Virus record (IMG/VR): IMGVR_UViG_3300042430_000389
Span: 1-39,541 of that record
Source: a virus
Length of the DNA: 39,541 bases
Strand: one strand, 5' to 3'
A program made the translations under genes and the position numbers. This document shows positions 9,592 through 22,071 of the stretch, one piece after another. The stretch's first letter is position 1. The number at the start of each line of letters is the position of its first letter. The notes below the pieces were generated by a model. It saw nothing but the letters and a program-made list of their open reading frames with translations, had not been told where the DNA came from and did not search any database.

Positions 9592-9781
9592 AGTTCTTTG
9601 TCCTGACACTCCGATCAAAAGAGTTGATGTCACGTTCTAACTTAAGTTCTTCTTTAAGTTTACTAACCTTGCGGTAAGCAGCGTTTAGTTCAGAGTTAAG
9701 AAGAGAACTCTTCCACTGCTCCATCGTGATCATTGCTCTTAGGTGCCGGTTCTCCTGCTTTAGTTTCCTCTTCGTTACCAT
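9581..9781 (-). CDS. Coiled-coil small protein, 66 aa
   Basis: The ATG at 9781 has GAGG at nine-base spacing and overlaps the sigma-like gene by 86 bases in another frame. The peptide is highly charged and helical (KRKLKQENRHLRAMI; YRKVSKLKEELKLERDIN), consistent with a coiled coil. A shorter start at 9733 is also possible. Its stop overlaps the next gene by 11 bases. No family recognised. Confidence 0.55.
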   Translation of the reverse strand: MVTKRKLKQENRHLRAMITMEQWKSSLLNSELNAAYRKVSKLKEELKLERDINSFDRSVRTKNYDL

Positions 9782-10418
9782 CTGATTCATCCTCATCTTT
9801 GAAAGGTGGAAATCCACCAAGGTGTCTTACCATTTTGTTTAGTGCTCGGTTAGCCTGCATCGCTGCTGCTTTTGATGAAGGCTTTTCTGGTAGTGCTTGT
9901 TCATGTAGATCCTGTGAGGTTACTTCCTCACCATAGAACAAGAACACAAGGTTCTGTTCCTTTTCATCTAACATACCAAAGGCTCTGCGAATATCAGCAA
10001 CGTGTGCCATCCAATCATCTGATTGTTCTAGAGACTTAGTTGACCTTCCGGTAGTGGACAATGCGTTCTCTACCTTCTGCCAGTTGTCAGATAAGATAGC
10101 AGGAATCATAGCCTTGACAAACTCTTTACGATACCAGAACACATCCTCTATGCTGTAGCCTTCCTTGTGTGCCTTCTCTCGAATACACATATCGTAAGCA
10201 GCATTGCGCAATGATCTAGCAAACAGTTTATCTGAATCCTTGATATCTTCTTTTAACCACTCTTTAGTTTTTACTGGATGTTCAATGAACCATAGCCACA
10301 GGTGTTGCTCTAGGTCTTGTCTTTCGACCATCGGATACTTGCGACAATACTCGGATGCAATTTGAACAACCATACTTCTATAAGTTTCGATAACTTCATA
10401 GTCAAGTTTACCATTCAT
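9696..10418 (-). CDS. Sigma-factor-like transcription protein, 240 aa
   Basis: The ATG at 10418 has GAGG at about nine bases and overlaps the upstream stop by 11 bases. Features that resemble sigma-70 family proteins are a region 2-like helix pair (SEYCRKYPMVERQDLEQHLW), a region rich in AYDMCIREK, and a later segment IRRAFGMLDEKEQNLVFLFYG, close to the region 4 pattern 'L...e..vl.L.y'. The C-terminus is acidic and disordered. It may direct polymerase to late phage promoters; this is inferred from its similarity and position. Confidence 0.6.
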   Translation of the reverse strand: MNGKLDYEVIETYRSMVVQIASEYCRKYPMVERQDLEQHLWLWFIEHPVKTKEWLKEDIKDSDKLFARSLRNAAYDMCIREKAHKEGYSIEDVFWYRKEFVKAMIPAILSDNWQKVENALSTTGRSTKSLEQSDDWMAHVADIRRAFGMLDEKEQNLVFLFYGEEVTSQDLHEQALPEKPSSKAAAMQANRALNKMVRHLGGFPPFKDEDESDGNEEETKAGEPAPKSNDHDGAVEEFSS

Positions 10419-11166
10419 ACAATTCACCCTCAACAACAAATGATCTGCCGTTGATCGGGACAACTACTGGAGTAACATTGCCTCTACGAATGTAGAGCAT
10501 AGTGAATGCTTGTTGCCAGTTAGCCGAACCTGTGTTCAGGTACGACGCTTGGCTAAGATCCATAAGGTGTCCGACTTCAACTCCGTAGAGACGGTTGTGA
10601 ATCTTCCCGTTGTATCCTTGGTGTTCGTGTTGAATACCCGCTCTATGTGTATGCCCACAGACAACCGAAGCCCCAATCTTGCGAGCCAAAGATAGAGCAG
10701 TCCCACCTGCTTGACGCGAGATGTTGCCTTCATCTCCATGCGCCAGTACCCATCCTGGAGTAAACTGCCAGATAGTATTGTGATAGGTAATCTCGTTCTC
10801 GCGGTAATTGAGTAACTTGGAGTACTCAAGGTCCCGCAAACTGGCGAGTGCTGGTGCGTACTTCTTAACATAGTGTTCGACGCGATCGCCATGGTTGCTC
10901 CTCATTGTGTGGAATGGCTTGTCTCCAAGTTGTTCCTTGAATTCAAGCATAATCTTTGCGGTCTTATCAAGGTTCTTTTGGAGTGTACCTGCGTACTCAC
11001 CAGCCGTACCCTTGTTCCATCGTGATGGTTCCGGACTATCAGACTCATCACCTACACAGTACAGTTCATCGGGTTCGTACTCACCAACAAAGTTCTGTAA
11101 TGCCCGTACCGCACGTGGATCGTGGTATGGGATTTGCATATCAGGTATTACAATAACGCGTTTCAC
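10408..11166 (-). CDS. Calcineurin-like metallophosphoesterase, 252 aa
   Basis: The metallophosphatase motifs are visible in order: D9-x-Q11 with H15, GDE (39-41), NHGDR (91-95), AHGDEG (142-147) and GHTHRA (171-176). The family hydrolyses phosphodiesters or phosphomonoesters with two metal ions. In phages it is often found with replication genes; its substrate is unknown. The gene overlaps the upstream Nmad1-like gene by four bases and the downstream sigma-like gene by 11. Confidence 0.88.
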   Translation of the reverse strand: MKRVIVIPDMQIPYHDPRAVRALQNFVGEYEPDELYCVGDESDSPEPSRWNKGTAGEYAGTLQKNLDKTAKIMLEFKEQLGDKPFHTMRSNHGDRVEHYVKKYAPALASLRDLEYSKLLNYRENEITYHNTIWQFTPGWVLAHGDEGNISRQAGGTALSLARKIGASVVCGHTHRAGIQHEHQGYNGKIHNRLYGVEVGHLMDLSQASYLNTGSANWQQAFTMLYIRRGNVTPVVVPINGRSFVVEGELYEW

Positions 11167-15100: not shown

Positions 15101-15200
15101 GTAACTTGCTCAAGGTTACCTATATATATTTAATTATAACTATAACTATATATTTTTATATATATAATTATATATATATAAATAGTCCCATAATTTATAA
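15101..15200. other. AT-rich tract with adjacent hairpin; origin or promoter candidate
   Basis: Positions 15101-15119 form a short hairpin (GTAACTTG / CAAGGTTAC). The following 80 bases are almost only A and T, with TATATA runs and AACTATAACTATA repeats. It is the only such island in the window and sits in a 211-base gap in the leftward operon. An easily melted region or promoter is plausible, but no iteron array is visible here. Confidence 0.4.
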
Positions 15201-15907: not shown

Positions 15908-16466
15908 CCACGATTAACCATTGTTGTTCTGGATAAATCCTGCGTCTTATCTCGAAGTTGTTGAGGCTAGCCGTTGGCATAAACCAACCGCTGTACCCGT
16001 GTACATCTCTGTGCGTTTCTTGTTCTGCTTCGGTTAACGATCTGTTAACAATGTCGAAGACACCACTGTCACAAGTCCATTGATCTCGGTAGATCTTTAA
16101 TAGATCATCAAGCATCCACAGTTGATTTTGTACTGCCTTGTTTGGATTGCGAACGTCTAAGTTATCCAATGATATGTCTAGTTCTTTCATACCTTTTTGG
16201 TGTGTCTCGAAGTAAGTGTAACGTCTCTCTAACGATTGTATAACAATATCGTCAAACCTTGCTACATTTTTTGCATAGTTCAAGCCGTCAAGTGGACAGA
16301 CTTGGTTGCGCCACCTACCTGCCAGCGTACCACCACCGAAAGCACCACCAAAATAATCCCACCAAGTAGGATTAACCTCACCATAAATGTTAAGGAACTT
16401 ACTTGTATTTTCCCTAGCCTCTTGCAAGTCCTTGCCCTCAGTCAAGAGTATCTGATAAGTATGCAC
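15891..16466 (-). CDS. Hypothetical actinophage protein, 191 aa
   Basis: A GTG start at 16466 with GGAG at about seven-base spacing overlaps the WhiB gene by 29 bases. The sequence has Gly-rich and aromatic motifs (WWDYFGGAFGGGTLAGRW) and a helical centre with several charged residues. The C-terminus contains FEIRRRIYPEQQWLIVVDFHF. No family recognised and no membrane span. Its close coupling to WhiB may mean shared regulation. Confidence 0.7.
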   Translation of the reverse strand: MHTYQILLTEGKDLQEARENTSKFLNIYGEVNPTWWDYFGGAFGGGTLAGRWRNQVCPLDGLNYAKNVARFDDIVIQSLERRYTYFETHQKGMKELDISLDNLDVRNPNKAVQNQLWMLDDLLKIYRDQWTCDSGVFDIVNRSLTEAEQETHRDVHGYSGWFMPTASLNNFEIRRRIYPEQQWLIVVDFHF

Positions 16467-16815
16467 TACGTATCTCCTGTTCTATTCTAATCATTTCTAC
16501 TTGCTTGTCAAGTAATTCGCTGAAGTTTGTTACCGGTATGTCGCGCATAATCCTCTCAGATCTACGCTCAGTAGCGGTCATACCACCCCAGAACCCATAC
16601 TCCTCGTTGTTGATAGCCCACTCACGACACGCCTGTACCTCTGGACAGGTAAGACATACCCTACGTAGGTAGGCGTGTTGCTTTGGTGCAGTCGAGATGT
16701 AACTCTCCCACCTAGTATCTGTGTCGTGGTTCATAGATTCTGCTACGACATAATCGTCATAGAATAAATCTGAATCCAACCCCTTACAGTTTGCATTCTC
16801 AAAGTCAGGTAACAA
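16438..16815 (-). CDS. whiB: WhiB family iron-sulfur regulator, 125 aa
   Basis: Four cysteines fit the WhiB cluster pattern: C10 (ANCKG), C54-x2-C57-x5-C63 (CLTCPEVQAC). The signature YGFWGGMTATERR follows at about 73. WhiB proteins hold a 4Fe-4S cluster and bind the primary sigma factor to control transcription. A TTG start at 16815 with AGGAG at seven bases is chosen over a TTG at 16845; the 11-base overlap with the upstream gene supports it. A C-terminal helical tail extends past the core. This is the key evidence for an actinobacterial host. Confidence 0.92.
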   Translation of the reverse strand: MLPDFENANCKGLDSDLFYDDYVVAESMNHDTDTRWESYISTAPKQHAYLRRVCLTCPEVQACREWAINNEEYGFWGGMTATERRSERIMRDIPVTNFSELLDKQVEMIRIEQEIRSAYLSDTLD

Positions 16816-16981
16816 GATCGTACTCCTCTTCCTCTGCCCATTCAATCTTATTCATTATGTCACTATCTGCTATGTAATCTAGTAGATCAAACACAGCCTC
16901 GCGTTGAGACATACTATACATTCGCTTAGTTAGTTCAGTATCCCACCAATATCCGAATGTCATATGCGCCTTAGCCTTCAT
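16805..16981 (-). CDS. Hypothetical small acidic protein, 58 aa
   Basis: The ATG at 16981 has AAGGGAG seven bases upstream and overlaps the previous stop by 11 bases (ATG-N5-TAA). An aromatic centre (TFGYWWDTELTKRMY) is followed by helical segments and an acidic tail (EWAEEEEYDLVT). No family recognised. It precedes WhiB in the operon. Confidence 0.65.
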   Translation of the reverse strand: MKAKAHMTFGYWWDTELTKRMYSMSQREAVFDLLDYIADSDIMNKIEWAEEEEYDLVT

Positions 16982-17231: not shown

Positions 17232-17415
17232 GGCATAACTCCTGTACTTCATCATTAATTTCTATGTCTTTTACAATAGCATACTCAAAGTATTTATCTC
17301 CAAGTACACCCAATAGTTCATACACTTCATCAGCAGATAGGCTAAGCCTAACACCTTGAAGTGTCAGTAACCAACCGTCCTTACGGACTTCACTCTTGAC
17401 TAGGCTAGTCAACAT
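17221..17415 (-). CDS. Hypothetical small protein, 64 aa
   Basis: The ATG overlaps the stop of the glutamine amidotransferase by one base (TGATG), with GGAG five bases upstream. The first half is beta-rich (SLVKSEVRKDGWLLTLQGVRLSL), the second is helical and acidic (DEVYELLGVLGDKYFEYAIVKDIEIND). No family recognised. Coupling to the amidotransferase may mean a shared function, but this is inference. Confidence 0.65.
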   Translation of the reverse strand: MLTSLVKSEVRKDGWLLTLQGVRLSLSADEVYELLGVLGDKYFEYAIVKDIEINDEVQELCRES

Positions 17416-18239
17416 CAGTACTCCATTCCATTGTAGTTGTGCTGTGCCACAGTAGGATTGTAGCACAAGCAAGCGACAGCGTGATCGTAACATTCAAGGC
17501 AAGAGTTACATACGGTACATACACCGTCATACAATCCTTCCTCTGTAACCTTACTCATACATACATAGCAGGTATAGTCAACCTGTTCCAACTCTGCGGT
17601 TAGTGCCTTGCGATCTGCATCTAGTAGATCCTCGCTAGACCATAGTCCACGTGAGTAGTAACCCGAACCATAGAACGTGTACGAGTGCTTGTAACTAGAG
17701 TTAGACCACCATACATCCTTGTCCCAAGTACCGAGATCCTCGTTGACAATGTACACAGAGTCACGTAACTCTGGTGCAGTAGTTAGGATAGCCAACTTAC
17801 TACCGGCAGCCCAACCCTCTAACCTCTTGAATGAATCCTTGTCGTCAAGGGATTCGACACCTAGGTTAGGTAAGATATCCTCTGCGAAGATGCGCGTGTC
17901 AGAACGCCGGTCACCCTGCTTGGGGTGGATAGGTAGCATACCGTTGTGACCAAGGATAATGTCCTTGCGACCACCTACCCTGAATGGGTGAGCGTTCTCG
18001 ATAATGCTATCGCCGTGCGTTGTGATACGAGCGTGATACATAGCGACAAAGTCAGTACCTGCACCATCGAGTGCATTGAAGAACTTGTCGATAGTTTTCT
18101 GTGCATTCATACCACGACTCGTAATGATACGGTCGCCGTAGTGAATGGCATAGCCGAACCCGTCAGGGTTATTGTTGCTTGCATTAACAATGCTGTTGTA
18201 GTCAGGAACCTGACCCATTGTTACCATTAATAAACACAC
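17415..18239 (-). CDS. Class II glutamine amidotransferase (Ntn hydrolase), 274 aa
   Basis: A GTG start gives Cys at position 2, the catalytic nucleophile of class II amidotransferases after Met removal. Family motifs follow in order: NPDGFGYA (24-31), YHARITTHG (68-76), NAHPF (82-86), LGHNGML (96-102) and SDTR (113-116). The C-terminus adds a Cys-rich segment (CYVCMSK and VCTVCNSCLECYDH). The reaction is glutamine hydrolysis to release ammonia. The gene immediately upstream encodes an amidoligase-like protein, which suggests a joint amide-bond pathway. The leader carries palindrome site 1. Confidence 0.9.
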   Translation of the reverse strand: MCLLMVTMGQVPDYNSIVNASNNNPDGFGYAIHYGDRIITSRGMNAQKTIDKFFNALDGAGTDFVAMYHARITTHGDSIIENAHPFRVGGRKDIILGHNGMLPIHPKQGDRRSDTRIFAEDILPNLGVESLDDKDSFKRLEGWAAGSKLAILTTAPELRDSVYIVNEDLGTWDKDVWWSNSSYKHSYTFYGSGYYSRGLWSSEDLLDADRKALTAELEQVDYTCYVCMSKVTEEGLYDGVCTVCNSCLECYDHAVACLCYNPTVAQHNYNGMEY

Positions 18240-18261
18240 TTTAGTTTCTCCTTTTCCTAGC

Positions 18262-18277
18262 GATTATAATTATAATC
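18262..18277. repeat. Palindrome site 1 (variant)
   Basis: GATTATAATTATAATC is a perfect 16-base palindrome, a variant of the GATCATAATTATGATC core repeated at five other sites. It lies immediately before the Shine-Dalgarno of the amidotransferase gene and touches the stop codon of the amidoligase gene. It also contains TATAAT in both directions. Confidence 0.8.
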
Positions 18278-19502
18278 ACTCTGTGTTTTCGTCTGGTGTT
18301 ATTTGAAAGTCTGGCAAGTATTGTACCAGATCTGGATACTTACCCTGCTTGCGTACCCAAGAGGCAAACTCCTCAGGGCGTAGCATTACGCTAGCATTAG
18401 CACCGCTTCGTATGTCACGTGTGTACTCAACCGAAGCGTGGCAGAACTGAATGGCACTACGGACACGCTCTACCTTGAGCGAACCCTTGAACATTCTAAC
18501 CTCTACCGTGTGTGTATTCTGCAAGTTGATAGCGTTGTACCTATCGCCACCTCTAGCAGAACTATGACGGCGTTTGATAGTAAGCACGTTATCTATCTTA
18601 GCACCCTCATTAACGATACCATAGTGAGAGTTGCGACCGGCAATGTGGCGACATAGATTCTCATTACGGTTGATCAGATAGGTGAACGCGAGCAAGTGAG
18701 TACGGTCAGTAAACGCTCGCCTATCTATGTGTACGTGTAGCCCACAAGTACCGGCATTCCACGACCTGAACCCTGCATCACGCAACTTATCAAGCGTACC
18801 CCAATCAACGTGATCTTGGTAATACTCAAGCGTTGCAGGGTGAGTGACTATCTCGAAACCAAAGTTAAGTGATGAGTCCTCCTTGAGATACACAAAGTCA
18901 CCCCAAGAATCTGTCATAGTTTCAGCACCCGAAGAGTAGTCACCGTTAGCAGCCTCAACCTCTAACTCCATACCAAAATACAGATGCTTGTCAGATGATC
19001 CGTGAAATACTGGCGTTGGTTTGTAACTGTAGTTGTGTACAAACTCAGAGTCAGGGTGACACATCTCGTCGTGCCACTCATACTGATCACACATTGAACA
19101 CCAGTTAGCAACTCTAGAGATACAACCAGAGCAGTAACAACTATCACCACTACCCACATAGTTAACATCATCAGTAGTAAAGATGCCATCACATCTCTCA
19201 CACTCACGATAGTTCTCTGTGCAATCACCACAGTATTCACCAAGAGTGTAGATACCACTGATCTCATTATCTAAATGGTAGTCACCACAGTCAGCACACT
19301 TATTAGTGCAGGTGTCACAGGCATAGACATCTTCGTACGTGAACTCGCGAGTCGTGTAGTTCCAATGTCCTTTCTGTGTCGTGTAATGCCGTTCGTTATC
19401 GGCATCATAATCAAACGCATCACCACAAGAGTAACACGTTATCGCAACAACAACTTCGATAGACTCGTTGTTACTATCAACAGAGTCAATGATCTCAGTC
19501 AC
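18276..19502 (-). CDS. Amidoligase (COOH-NH2 ligase-like) with N-terminal zinc-finger array, 408 aa
   Basis: The N-terminal 150 residues contain multiple CxxC-type pairs (CYSCGD, CDTCTNKCADCGD, CGDCTENYRECERC, CYCSGC, WCSMCDQ), probably zinc-binding treble-clef units. The catalytic part shows FGMELEVE (176-183), KEDSSL (207-212), FEIVTHP (216-222), CGLHVHID (253-260), RYNAINL (321-327) and TVEVRMFKG (332-340), matching the putative amidoligase family as I know it. Such enzymes join amines to carboxyl groups with ATP. The GTG start has AGGAG at six bases, preceded by palindrome site 2. The partner amidotransferase is downstream. Confidence 0.85.
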   Translation of the reverse strand: MTEIIDSVDSNNESIEVVVAITCYSCGDAFDYDADNERHYTTQKGHWNYTTREFTYEDVYACDTCTNKCADCGDYHLDNEISGIYTLGEYCGDCTENYRECERCDGIFTTDDVNYVGSGDSCYCSGCISRVANWCSMCDQYEWHDEMCHPDSEFVHNYSYKPTPVFHGSSDKHLYFGMELEVEAANGDYSSGAETMTDSWGDFVYLKEDSSLNFGFEIVTHPATLEYYQDHVDWGTLDKLRDAGFRSWNAGTCGLHVHIDRRAFTDRTHLLAFTYLINRNENLCRHIAGRNSHYGIVNEGAKIDNVLTIKRRHSSARGGDRYNAINLQNTHTVEVRMFKGSLKVERVRSAIQFCHASVEYTRDIRSGANASVMLRPEEFASWVRKQGKYPDLVQYLPDFQITPDENTE

Positions 19503-19516
19503 CGTTATCTCCTAAC

Positions 19517-19534
19517 TGATCATAGTTATGATCA
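19517..19534. repeat. Palindrome site 2
   Basis: TGATCATAGTTATGATCA is an 18-base palindrome with one mismatch at the centre. It sits in the leader of the amidoligase gene, between promoter copy A and the Shine-Dalgarno. Confidence 0.85.
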
Positions 19535-19573
19535 CTCGGTAAGTTGGTCAGCACCTTGCCCACCAACAGATCC

Positions 19574-19603
19574 ATCTTAGCATACAGGTACATAGCCCGT
19601 CAA
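19574..19603 (-). promoter_or_regulatory. Leftward promoter copy A (TTGACG-18-TAAGAT)
   Basis: On the minus strand TTGACG (19598-19603) and TAAGAT (19574-19579) are 18 bases apart. The surrounding 33 bases are nearly identical to the promoter at 20828-20857. It lies upstream of the amidoligase gene and inside the end of the 35-aa gene at 19600. Between promoter and palindrome is a short hairpin GTTGGT/ACCAAC. Confidence 0.7.
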
Positions 19604-19707
19604 ATCCTAATCTTCTTAGCCCACTCGCGCTCGAGTTGGTCATAGATAGGGGTATCTGAATGGGGTACAGGTGTACCCTTGAATAGATTTACAATGAACT
19701 TAAACAC
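19600..19707 (-). CDS. Hypothetical mini-protein, 35 aa
   Basis: The GTG at 19707 has AAGGAG seven bases upstream and overlaps the previous stop by eight bases. The peptide is basic with one hydrophobic run (MFKFIVNLFKGTPVP) and a charged end. The downstream promoter copy overlaps its 3' end. No family recognised; it is supported mainly by the ribosome binding site and overlap. Confidence 0.55.
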   Translation of the reverse strand: MFKFIVNLFKGTPVPHSDTPIYDQLEREWAKKIRI

Positions 19708-19954
19708 GTGCGTACTCCTTTGATAGTTGTGGTCTTGCGGGTGGTTGCTTACTTACATAGACTCTAGCGTGGAACTCCTTGTTGTGCAAGTTAATACCAG
19801 CACACAACTCAGATACCCACCGGTAGGGTTTACTCTGGGTATCACAGTCAGAGCAGGTGAAATACCACCTGTCCTTGCCAAAGAACTCACGCAGAATACC
19901 AATACGATCAGAGTCCTTGTTGATTCGATAGGTTACTACCTCAGACATAGGCAT
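19700..19954 (-). CDS. Hypothetical protein with Cys/His motif, 84 aa
   Basis: The ATG at 19954 has GAGGAG seven bases upstream. A candidate metal site reads C-S-D-C (FTCSDCD) followed by C and H residues (ELCAGINLHNKEFHA). A beta-rich start (EVVTYRINKDSDRIGILREFF) comes before. It overlaps the upstream gene by 14 bases. No family recognised. Confidence 0.7.
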   Translation of the reverse strand: MPMSEVVTYRINKDSDRIGILREFFGKDRWYFTCSDCDTQSKPYRWVSELCAGINLHNKEFHARVYVSKQPPARPQLSKEYARV

Positions 19955-20108
19955 ACTTCATCTCCTCTTCACACTTGTCCGAGCATACATAGACCTCGTG
20001 GTAGTGGTCAAGCATTACAGGTATATCGTGTTGCACAGACATAGGTTCTCTACACAAGAAACACCACGCTTCCACGAACCGATCACGATTTACTAATAGT
20101 GCAGTCAC
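19941..20108 (-). CDS. Small zinc-finger protein (treble-clef-like), 55 aa
   Basis: The peptide VTALLVNRDRFVEAW-CFLC (C16, C19) and later VYVCSDKC (C42, C46) gives two Cys pairs spaced like a small FCS/treble-clef zinc finger. The GTG start overlaps the upstream stop by four bases (GTGA) and has AAGGAG at six-base spacing, so initiation is well supported. Function unknown. Confidence 0.75.
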   Translation of the reverse strand: MTALLVNRDRFVEAWCFLCREPMSVQHDIPVMLDHYHEVYVCSDKCEEEMKYAYV

Positions 20109-20332
20109 TTGATACTCCTTAAGAAAGCAAACGATCCACCGTCATTAACCTTTTCCAGCATAGCACCCAGAGAATCCACTGCTGTACCGCGCAGGATTTT
20201 CTTTTGACTATCCTCTGGTATCGTGTTGAACAAAGCCACAAGTGGGTGACCTGACCGTAATTCATAGGTGCATTCGATCTCGAACTTAACCTTTACCTGA
20301 TCATAATTATGATCACTTGTTGGCTTAGCCAT
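20105..20332 (-). CDS. Hypothetical protein, 75 aa, with palindrome inside the gene
   Basis: The start at 20332 (ATG with GAGG about 10 bases upstream) overlaps the upstream membrane gene by eight bases. The first codons (MAKPTSDHNYDQVKV) translate the 18-base palindrome as SDHNYDQ. The remainder has a beta strand run (KVKFEIECTYELRSG) and a helical end. A later start is not available in frame. No family recognised. Confidence 0.65.
   Translation of the reverse strand: MAKPTSDHNYDQVKVKFEIECTYELRSGHPLVALFNTIPEDSQKKILRGTAVDSLGAMLEKVNDGGSFAFLRSIK
20298..20315. repeat. Palindrome site 3 (inside a coding region)
   Basis: TGATCATAATTATGATCA is a perfect 18-base palindrome. Unlike sites 1, 2 and 4 it lies within a gene (near its 5' end, codons 6-12), so it is not simply a leader element here. 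Confidence 0.85.
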
Positions 20333-20483
20333 TCTTACTTTTCCTCTCACTCTGTAATTCCCACGAAACTTGCAGGATCTGGCGCACATAGTCCTCGCAC
20401 TCACGATTCAGGCGCACCACACGCCACACTAGACCCACGATTACCATTAGCAACAGTAGATCGAACCCGTTAATTGTCTGCAT
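20325..20483 (-). CDS. Small membrane protein with single N-terminal span, 52 aa
   Basis: The ATG overlaps the stop of the upstream gene (TAATG) and has GAGGAG at about five bases. One hydrophobic span (LLLLMVIVGLVWRVV, residues about 9-23) is followed by a charged cytoplasmic tail with several Arg/Glu and a C-terminal helix. Function unknown. The gene is too short for many gene finders. Confidence 0.72.
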   Translation of the reverse strand: MQTINGFDLLLLMVIVGLVWRVVRLNRECEDYVRQILQVSWELQSERKSKNG

Positions 20484-20746
20484 TACTTCTCCTCTAGTAG
20501 GTGAGCCACAGCCCGTAGTGTAGCCTGTGCCTGTGCGACAGCAGACAGTAGTCTGCCCTCGGATACAGCATCAAGGATAGCCTGAGCCTGCTTGCGCTCA
20601 AAGTCCACCCGATCCTGATAGGAACTGAAAGACTCACGATAAGCCATACGCTCATCAAATGTCATACCAGTTTCAATGTCTAAGTGCAATGCCTTGACAG
20701 CACCGAACTTACTTACATCCTCTTGCTCTAACCAAAAGTCAGCCAT
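20483..20746 (-). CDS. Hypothetical helical protein, 87 aa
   Basis: Alternating acidic and basic helices (DERMAYRESFSSYQDRVDFERKQAQAILDAV, LSAVAQAQATLRAVAHLLEEK) suggest a helical bundle or coiled coil. It is the first gene of the leftward arm, and its leader carries palindrome site 4 and promoter copy B. No family recognised. As the first early gene it may be made soon after infection. Confidence 0.72.
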   Translation of the reverse strand: MADFWLEQEDVSKFGAVKALHLDIETGMTFDERMAYRESFSSYQDRVDFERKQAQAILDAVSEGRLLSAVAQAQATLRAVAHLLEEK

Positions 20747-20760
20747 TTAACTAACCTTTC

Positions 20761-20778
20761 TGATCATAATTATGATCG
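20761..20778. repeat. Palindrome site 4
   Basis: TGATCATAATTATGATCG carries the perfect core GATCATAATTATGATC. It is 15 bases upstream of the ATG at 20746, with the Shine-Dalgarno AAAGG between them. A second inverted repeat, GGTGATCACC, lies just on the promoter side. Confidence 0.85.
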
Positions 20779-20827
20779 CCTTGCGGTGATCACCACCAGA
20801 TTGTGTCCTTCACAACCTGATGTATCC

Positions 20828-20857
20828 ATCTTACCACACAGGTACATAGTCTGTCAA
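20828..20857 (-). promoter_or_regulatory. Leftward promoter copy B (TTGACA-18-TAAGAT)
   Basis: TTGACA (20852-20857) and TAAGAT (20828-20833) are 18 bases apart on the minus strand. The surrounding sequence repeats promoter copy A at 19574-19603. The start is about 80 bases upstream of the first leftward ATG (20746), and palindrome site 4 lies in its leader. It probably starts the early operon. Confidence 0.75.
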
Positions 20858-21069
20858 GGATAAAATGCACCTATTTTTCCTGCACCTTTTACAGCACCTG
20901 CCCGTACCGTACACAGCACCTCTATGCGCACGCAGGCGCACCCCTGCGCTCGCACTCGCCTATGTGTATGCGTGTGTATGTGTATGCATACGGGTGTGGG
21001 TGTGCCTATGTATGGGTGTGGGTGTACCGGTGGCTACGGGTGGGTGTTGCCTAAGTGCAACTAGGTTGC

Positions 21070-21087
21070 TGATCATAATTATGATCA
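21070..21087. repeat. Palindrome site 5
   Basis: TGATCATAATTATGATCA, perfect 18-base palindrome in the intergenic control region, immediately next to the GTTGC inverted-repeat array. Confidence 0.88.
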
Positions 21088-21097
21088 CTTAGTGATC

Positions 21098-21113
21098 GTT
21101 GCTAATTGGTAAC
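21098..21113. repeat. GTTGC inverted repeat R1
   Basis: GTTGC-TAATTG-GTAAC. The first copy of the GTTGC-N6-GYAAC family; it is followed by GCCTAGC, so the wider unit is about 23 bases (to 21120). Confidence 0.75.
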
Positions 21114-21146
21114 GCCTAGCCTTACGCCTAGCCCTAGCCCGTAGGC

Positions 21147-21162
21147 GTTGCGTATTGGTAAC
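21147..21162. repeat. GTTGC inverted repeat R2
   Basis: GTTGC-GTATTG-GTAAC, 49 bases after R1, followed by GGGTAGC. Confidence 0.75.
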
Positions 21163-21191
21163 GGGTAGCGCGTATCTAATCGGGTGATCTT

Positions 21192-21207
21192 GTTGCTAAT
21201 GGGTAAC
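21192..21207. repeat. GTTGC inverted repeat R3
   Basis: GTTGC-TAATGG-GTAAC, 45 bases after R2. It is followed directly by GGTTACGCTTAGC, which makes a nested GTAAC-G-GTTAC inverted repeat. Confidence 0.75.
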
Positions 21208-21237
21208 GGTTACGCTTAGCGCGTAAGTCTGGCGCGT

Positions 21238-21253
21238 GTTGCGTATCTGTAAC
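21238..21253. repeat. GTTGC inverted repeat R4
   Basis: GTTGC-GTATCT-GTAAC, 46 bases after R3, followed by GCTTAGC. Confidence 0.75.
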
Positions 21254-21263
21254 GCTTAGCTTT

Positions 21264-21279
21264 GTTGCGTATCTGCATC
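21264..21279. repeat. GTTGC inverted repeat R5 (degenerate)
   Basis: GTTGC-GTATCT-GCATC, 26 bases after R4. The left arm and the N6 match the other copies; the right arm has one change (GCATC for GCAAC). Confidence 0.5.
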
Positions 21280-21287
21280 AAGTTGCC

Positions 21288-21305
21288 TGATCATAATTAT
21301 GATCA
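21288..21305. repeat. Palindrome site 6
   Basis: TGATCATAATTATGATCA, perfect 18-base palindrome, just downstream of R5 and next to the R6 repeat. Confidence 0.88.
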
Positions 21306-21314
21306 CTAGGAATT

Positions 21315-21330
21315 GTTGCGATCTTGCAAC
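21315..21330. repeat. GTTGC inverted repeat R6
   Basis: GTTGC-GATCTT-GCAAC, a perfect 5-base inverted repeat with six-base spacer, 10 bases after palindrome site 6. Confidence 0.75.
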
Positions 21331-21543: not shown

Positions 21544-22071
21544 ATGAGTACCAAAGAAAAGGAAAAGGTAGGCGCGAAAGTTGCGCTAGTCGGCGAGATC
21601 AAAAAGATCGTTGCCAAAGAGCAACAAACCGTTGAATACATTGCAGGTATTCTCAAGGGTTTAGTTGATGCAGGACACTCTCACCGTTCAATCGTTGCTG
21701 AATGGTCAAAGCAGGCAGGGCGCAAGATCAGCGTTGCCACTATCTCGCATCACGTTGCAATCGCTGACTCAAAGAGTGGCGCAAATGCTCAAGCCCTGCT
21801 GAAAGAGTTGCAAGGCAACAAGATCACCGTTGAGCAGGTTCGCACCTTGACCCCTGCAAAGGCAAAGGAACTCGAGTTAATGTCCGCACCTGTCCGCAAG
21901 GTTCGCACGCCTAAGCCAAAGGCAAAGGCAACCAACGCACCTGCACCTGCTGAGCAGATCAACGCAATCAACAAGGCAATCCAGACAGGTAAGACATTGA
22001 GCGCACAAGATCGCGCCAATGCAATCAAGGCAACTCAAGCCCTGCTTGAAATGCTAATCGCTACAAGTTAG
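21544..22071 (+). CDS. DNA-binding regulator or ParB-like protein, 175 aa
   Basis: The ATG follows AGGA and is the first Met after a 5' leader with a hairpin. Residues about 1-35 are Lys/Glu helical. The central part (GHSHRSIVAEWSKQAGRKISVATISHHVAIADS) reads as a helix-turn-helix. Next comes a stretch resembling the ParB-type linker (ALLKELQGNKITVEQVRTLTPAKAKELE), then a Pro/Ala/Lys linker and a C-terminal helix. It sits alone between the two arms, flanked on both sides and within by GTTGC inverted repeats, and is followed by a terminator. It is the best candidate to bind one of the two repeat families. Confidence 0.7.
   Translation: MSTKEKEKVGAKVALVGEIKKIVAKEQQTVEYIAGILKGLVDAGHSHRSIVAEWSKQAGRKISVATISHHVAIADSKSGANAQALLKELQGNKITVEQVRTLTPAKAKELELMSAPVRKVRTPKPKAKATNAPAPAEQINAINKAIQTGKTLSAQDRANAIKATQALLEMLIATS
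21610..21625. repeat. GTTGC inverted repeat R7 (inside the regulator gene)
   Basis: GTTGC-CAAAGA-GCAAC, a perfect copy inside the 5' part of the helix-turn-helix gene, 66 bases after its start codon. Confidence 0.65.

Follow-up and report, generated by a model that had tools for sequence, protein, structure and literature searches.

Repeated palindromes in the early region of an uncultured phage are probable operators of a co-varying helix-turn-helix regulator

Palindromic sites of the window

The IMG/VR virus record IMGVR_UViG_3300042430_000389 was analysed over its full length of 39,541 nucleotides (nt), hereafter the window, and its early region was found to carry six copies of a palindrome, TGATCATAATTATGATCA. 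We consider it probable that these palindromes are operators at which a helix-turn-helix (HTH) repressor of the phage, encoded by the gene at 21544-22071, blocks early leftward transcription. Judged from the sequences, they are almost certainly DNA docking sites of this adjacently encoded regulator. The original prediction, made from the letters of the window, had proposed repressor operators, RNA elements or recognition sites of a host or phage factor, and the first is now strongly favoured because the sites change in concert with the neighbouring HTH gene.

Six sites matched TGATCATAATTATGATCA with at most three mismatches, all of them within 18.26-21.31 kilobases (kb) of the window, and no further site was found elsewhere in the 39,541-base record. 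Dinucleotide shuffles of the window gave a mean of 0.02 such sites and never six, which bears out the expectation that a repeated palindrome of this kind is unlikely by chance. Six near-identical sites had been predicted. The number holds, with three exact sites and two with one mismatch, but site 1 starts at 18261 and has another spelling, with three mismatches to TGATCATAATTATGATCA and one mismatch to TGATTATAATTATAATCA, which is the type B spelling described below. Sites 1, 2 and 4 lie directly 5′ of the Shine-Dalgarno (SD) sequences of leftward genes, as predicted, and their centres are 30, 23 and 23 nt from the respective start codons. Site 3 is intragenic, also as predicted. The features are listed in Table 1.

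Table 1. Coordinates of sites, promoters and genes in the window
Feature	Position	Strand	Description
Operator site 1	18261..18278	.	CGATTATAATTATAATCA, spelled as type B; flanked by the amidoligase-like gene's stop codon and the SD of gene 17415-18239
Operator site 2	19517..19534	.	TGATCATAGTTATGATCA, one mismatch; lies between P2 and the SD of gene 18276-19502(-)
Operator site 3	20298..20315	.	Exact palindrome; inside leftward gene 20105-20332, 17 nt 3′ of its ATG
Operator site 4	20761..20778	.	TGATCATAATTATGATCG, one mismatch; lies between P1 and the SD of gene 20483-20746(-)
Operator site 5	21070..21087	.	Exact; non-coding, within GTTGC array
Operator site 6	21288..21305	.	Exact; non-coding, ~240 bp ahead of the regulator gene, within GTTGC array
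Regulator gene	21544..22071	+	HTH protein of 175 amino acids; proposed to bind the palindromes as their cognate protein; divergence tracks operator type
Predicted HTH	21682..21768	+	Regulator codons 47-75; helices 47-58 and 64-75
Promoter P1	20828..20857	-	TTGACA-N18-TAAGAT (sequence match); predicted start ~52 nt before site 4 centre; conserved in relatives
Promoter P2	19574..19603	-	TTGACG-N18-TAAGAT, homologous to P1; predicted start ~42 nt before site 2 centre; conserved in relatives
WhiB-like gene	16438-16845
Sigma-like gene	9696-10442

Operator spellings and the regulator gene change together

IMG/VR was searched for relatives with two kinds of query, early-region genes and the palindrome; the contigs obtained are metagenomic and some are fragments. 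For each genome, the operator set was built up from palindromes detected in that genome itself. At the loci of the window, G001, G009 and G010 carried TGATCATAATTATGATCA (type A), G003 and G008 carried TGATTATAATTATAATCA (type B) and G004 carried TGATTGTAWWTACAATCA (type C). Conservation at the same loci in related phages had been suggested as a check; the sites were present there with their letters changed. All sites of a genome were altered together while the flanking bases were largely conserved, and the changes were symmetric and limited to a few bases, so that the palindrome was kept. At position 5, for example, types B and C have T instead of the C of type A.

When the genes of the window were compared with those of each relative, the gene at 21544-22071 was the sole gene near the sites whose divergence followed the spelling. 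Its product was 93-94% identical to the window regulator in type A, 75-80% in type B (75-76% over the best segment) and ~32-33% in type C, while in the same comparison the terminase was 96-100% identical and the product of the adjacent gene 20483-20746 was 92-100% identical. By alignment the regulator is an HTH protein, and its AlphaFold model is an all-helical HTH fold with a mean predicted local distance difference test score of 76.7 and values of ~90 in helices 47-58 and 64-75. Residue differences between types A and B were enriched in the HTH (8/22, Fisher p=0.021). Type C shares the type B residue at nine positions, six of which are in the HTH (H47Q, K56A, V64Q, H69Q, H70Y and A74V), and several type-specific residues fall in the predicted recognition helix.

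A tblastn search (E<=1) of 50,697 records of named phages gave no match to the regulator, which also had no convincing relative and no ParB match in a Pfam profile search and no significant match among viral structures with Foldseek. No match in bacterial genomes was confirmed, and thus no prophage was seen.

The same design in more distant relatives

More distant relatives were covered by a de novo palindrome search followed by a terminase-based scan. They carry 4-9 copies of a private palindrome together with an HTH gene of their own at the same locus, and ~12 spellings were found in all. The palindromes were TTATTCTAATTAGAATAA in G007 (five copies), ACTTTAnnTAAAGT in G006 (tandem pairs at four places), CTAACAGTACTGTTAG in L042 and L046, CTAACGKTAMCGTTAG in L045, CTGACGGTACCGTCAG in L043 and L062, CTGACAGTACTGTCAG in L047 and L052, GTATCCTnnAGGATAC in L063 (nine copies), GTATCTTnnAAGATAC in L073 and CCTATCAnnTGATAGG in L079. 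An HTH-type gene of 174-208 codons was located between or beside the terminase-proximal sites in all these relatives but L079. Some genomes hold mixed operator spellings.

A second clade comprises seven phages with terminases at least 96% identical. Their regulators were 27-96% identical and the operator spellings matched this divergence. In this clade the terminase-proximal site precedes the regulator start by ~170-210 bp, and a further site lies just past the regulator end. Across the relatives, regulator distance correlated with operator distance when terminase distance was controlled for (r=0.40, permutation p=0.0004). Within the two near-isogenic clades (terminase at least 96% identical), the regulator-operator rho was 0.93 and 0.53 (combined p=0.0012), as compared with 0.14 and −0.01 for terminase and operator.

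The regulators of some relatives matched known DNA-binding HTH families, at scores on either side of the cut-off. The L045 regulator scored 29.3 bits for LacI, above the curated Pfam cut-off of 27, and the L042 regulator was just under it at 26.6. The G007 regulator scored 24.1 bits for ArgR, under the cut-off of 27, and the window regulator had no LacI or ArgR score. When the profiles of the two regulator groups were compared, only 12 HTH columns aligned, so that common descent of the groups in different clades is unproven, although the predicted order of helices is similar.

Position of the sites relative to promoters and gene starts

An SD-supported leftward start was found 8-45 nt downstream of the centre of 40/85 sites, as against 11.6% of positions (p=5e-16, a value that overstates independence, since homologous copies are included among the 85 sites). 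On the rightward strand, 1/85 sites had an SD-supported start. In 5/5 clade members tested, two homologous predicted promoters of the form TTGACR-N18-TAANAT precede site 2 by 42 nt and site 4 by 49-52 nt, counted to the centre of the site. Strong promoter matches were on the leftward strand only, mostly 20-80 nt upstream of a site, and no rightward promoter was scored near any site. The sites would thus fall in the 5′ leader of early leftward genes or within their first codons, which appears compatible with a transcription roadblock.

In both leaders the predicted start is followed immediately by a stable predicted hairpin (20790-20822 and 19540-19567 of the window, minus strand). The hairpins are AUCAGGUUGUG-CACAAUCUGGU and GUUGGU-ACCAAC, with fold z-scores of −4.1 and −3.0.

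Proposed mode of action and alternative explanations

The sequences themselves establish that the sites exist, that they change symmetrically and in concert, that one gene co-varies with them, and where they lie with respect to promoters and gene starts. From this we infer direct binding, dimerisation, repression rather than activation, a roadblock and an immunity-like role. The HTH regulator of the phage would bind the palindromes as a dimer, and when bound between a promoter and the ribosome-binding site, or at the first codons, the dimer would most likely act as a roadblock to the early leftward operon. The early genes could be shut off in this way at a later stage of infection, or when the cell already harbours a phage of the same type. 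Regulator and operators would switch specificity jointly, giving types that are blind to one another, in the manner of heteroimmune temperate phages.

Several observations weigh against this proposal. Site 1 of the window and site 58 of G010 (both type B), as well as several L047 sites, are spelled for another type than that of their genome. The regulator gene of the window clade points rightward and starts 240-470 bp after sites 5 and 6, where no clear promoter match was found; autoregulation through these two sites is unproven. Activation by binding downstream of a promoter, the opposite of what we propose, would be an unusual but conceivable alternative. Integrase or resolvase (PF00589, PF00239) and ParA (PF13614) were not found in nine records, seven of which are 39-41 kb long, and therefore lysogeny is not demonstrated; modes of maintenance other than integrase or partition genes are conceivable.

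As to site 1, the window chunk 18200-18399 is 98.5% identical to the type B genome G003 and 94% to G001, while the sequence just to its left is closest to G001. This suggests recombination around site 1. In L034 / G008 (oriented position 2160), the homologue of window 20105-20332 is missing and one operator joins the left flank of one site to the right flank of another; the junction is probably a product of recombination between operators.

A ParB/KorB-like protein with centromere-like sites, serving partition or compaction instead of, or besides, gene regulation, is an unlikely explanation. The best Foldseek matches of the regulator model in the PDB were Spo0J and KorB, and SopB, VirB and Noc were among those of the clade-2 model, but none was significant (E 0.7 and higher). 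Several relatives also carry canonical bacterial parS. However, neither a ParA family match, in the nine records, nor a Pfam match to ParB was detected, and the sites are tied to leftward gene starts, which is not required of a centromere.

It is quite unlikely that the palindromes act as RNA hairpins before the ribosome-binding site, controlling translation, processing or stability through an RNA-binding protein or nuclease. About half of the sites would be transcribed, being placed a short way ahead of an SD, and the predicted fold of the site 2 leader does form such a hairpin. The predicted fold of the site 4 leader, however, leaves the palindrome hairpin unused, and among 103 distinct sites imperfect pairs were G-U in 18 cases and A-C in 17, without a bias towards G-U in the RNA sense. 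Sites 5 and 6 precede no leftward gene, no Rfam match exceeded the gathering score, and the gene that co-varies with the sites codes for an HTH protein, as it does in relatives with LacI- and ArgR-like regulators. The RNA stem or processing role raised in the original prediction is accordingly disfavoured.

The hexamers resembling a −10 element (TATGAT/CATAAT) that had also been pointed out do not appear to explain the palindromes either. TANNNT is kept in each half-site of types A-E, in keeping with (bidirectional) promoters, but good promoters lie upstream of sites 2 and 4 in the clade members tested, no TTG-type −35 with a TANNNT −10 was scored at the window palindromes, and CTAACAGTACTGTTAG, CTGACGGTACCGTCAG and GTATCCTnnAGGATAC have no −10 hexamer, so this is very improbable. 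Just as improbable is a mobile or self-homogenising repeat, spread by insertion or gene conversion without a protein partner: G008, which lacks the gene between two apparently fused sites, shows that copies recombine, and spellings are mixed in some genomes, but across clades the sites keep their positions with respect to start codons, the spelling co-varies with one gene and the changes between types are limited to a few symmetric bases.

Comparison with known systems

Operators of the P1 C1 repressor are dispersed in number over the phage genome and are asymmetric. The proposed operators are likewise dispersed in one phage genome but are palindromic. In the KorB/OB regulon of plasmid RK2, an HTH dimer of the ParB superfamily acts on dispersed palindromic operators; the window regulator shares with KorB and ParB a weak, non-significant resemblance of predicted fold, without a Pfam ParB match or a ParA.

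The stoperators of Cluster A mycobacteriophages are 13-bp, asymmetric, orientation-dependent sites bound by a monomer, with 20-30 per genome (PMC9283540, PMC6550527). In Cluster A (L5, Bxb1, Trixie), the repressor Rep (gp71-type) and its site motif diverge together, which yields heteroimmune relatives (PMC6550527, PMC9283540). The present system is similar in having an HTH regulator, one short site repeated many times, in part within short intergenic spaces, and a joint divergence of regulator and site spelling, a likeness of behaviour and not of homology. It differs in its near-perfect palindromes of 16-18 bp, 4-9 per genome (six in the window) and in the early region only, and in a regulator without evident homology to L5 Rep (no tblastn match and nothing of note in Pfam). 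Cluster A phages also carry an integrase or parABS, neither of which was found in the nine records. The system would work like Cluster A stoperators but is not a member of that family. Another repeated element first found by sequence alone is SPBRE of SPbeta, a 15-bp motif later recognised as the site of the master repressor MrpR at many promoters (PMC10516654). Unlike the regulator described here, MrpR has a tyrosine-recombinase fold, and SPbeta is an integrating prophage (PMC10516654).

Phage, host and parS

The window is a phage genome, with a terminase, a gene of tape-measure size, an endopeptidase, a primase and a helicase. No near-identical DNA was found in named phages. Its nearest named terminase match was LanE43-AprF5 (54% identity), one of two cultured Ca. 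Planktophila phages, both of which likewise have whiB and sigma-factor genes (PMC10202952). The host is therefore likely to be a freshwater actinobacterium. A comparable palindrome family was not found in the isolate LanE43-AprF5 (OX376641), and none was found within 8 kb of the terminase in the group with 63% terminase identity and in several others. One exact match in the 154,941-bp contig L014 was set aside as probably chance or unrelated.

An exact bacterial chromosomal parS, GTTTCACGTGAAAC, is located upstream of the terminase in seven relatives (L042:7406, L047:5667, L062:3267, L102:7070, L104:7426, L112:70 and L050:9), with 0.005 expected in 1.25 megabases. It is ~20 bp from an operator in 3/7 of them, and the window has no parS. 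AATGTTTCACGTGAAACC occurs in 83 viral contigs. The phages may use the ParABS system of the host, and parS beside the locus fits episomal maintenance, though only as a lead. We tentatively picture integrase-free phages, probably of freshwater Nanopelagicales, with diversified repressor-operator immunity and an episomal or pseudolysogenic state, some of them segregating by host parS instead of a ParAB of their own; this wider picture is doubtful.

If it holds, phages that infect very abundant lake bacteria would compete to a large extent through their immunity types. From sequence alone, a regulator family with its probable operators has been identified here in actinophages that are uncultured but have distant cultivated relatives lysing Ca. 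Planktophila, and immunity-like specificity types turn over among phages 96-100% identical in terminase. The ~12 natural spellings and their regulators, some differing by few HTH residues and one base pair per half-site, form a test set for the evolution of DNA-binding specificity and give a handle on why virulent-looking phages retain repressor-like systems.

Other repeats in the window

Seven near-palindromes of the form GTTGCn6GnA(A/T)C, spaced ~26-52 bp apart, lie at 21046-21330. Sites 5 and 6, which had been described as flanking this array, are rather embedded in it. The array is kept in types A, B and C and is absent from the L042-type clade; it may be asked whether its elements are origin iterons or a second family of binding sites. 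As the main target of the regulator it was rejected, because it is kept in type C despite a regulator only ~32% identical. GATC methylation or restriction sites were rejected as an explanation of the palindromes because types B-E have no GATC. At 15120-15182, between leftward genes, very A+T-rich near-palindromes (TAATTATAACTATAACTATATATTTT...) were observed, and relatives carry TGATTATAATTATAATTA-like sequence there.

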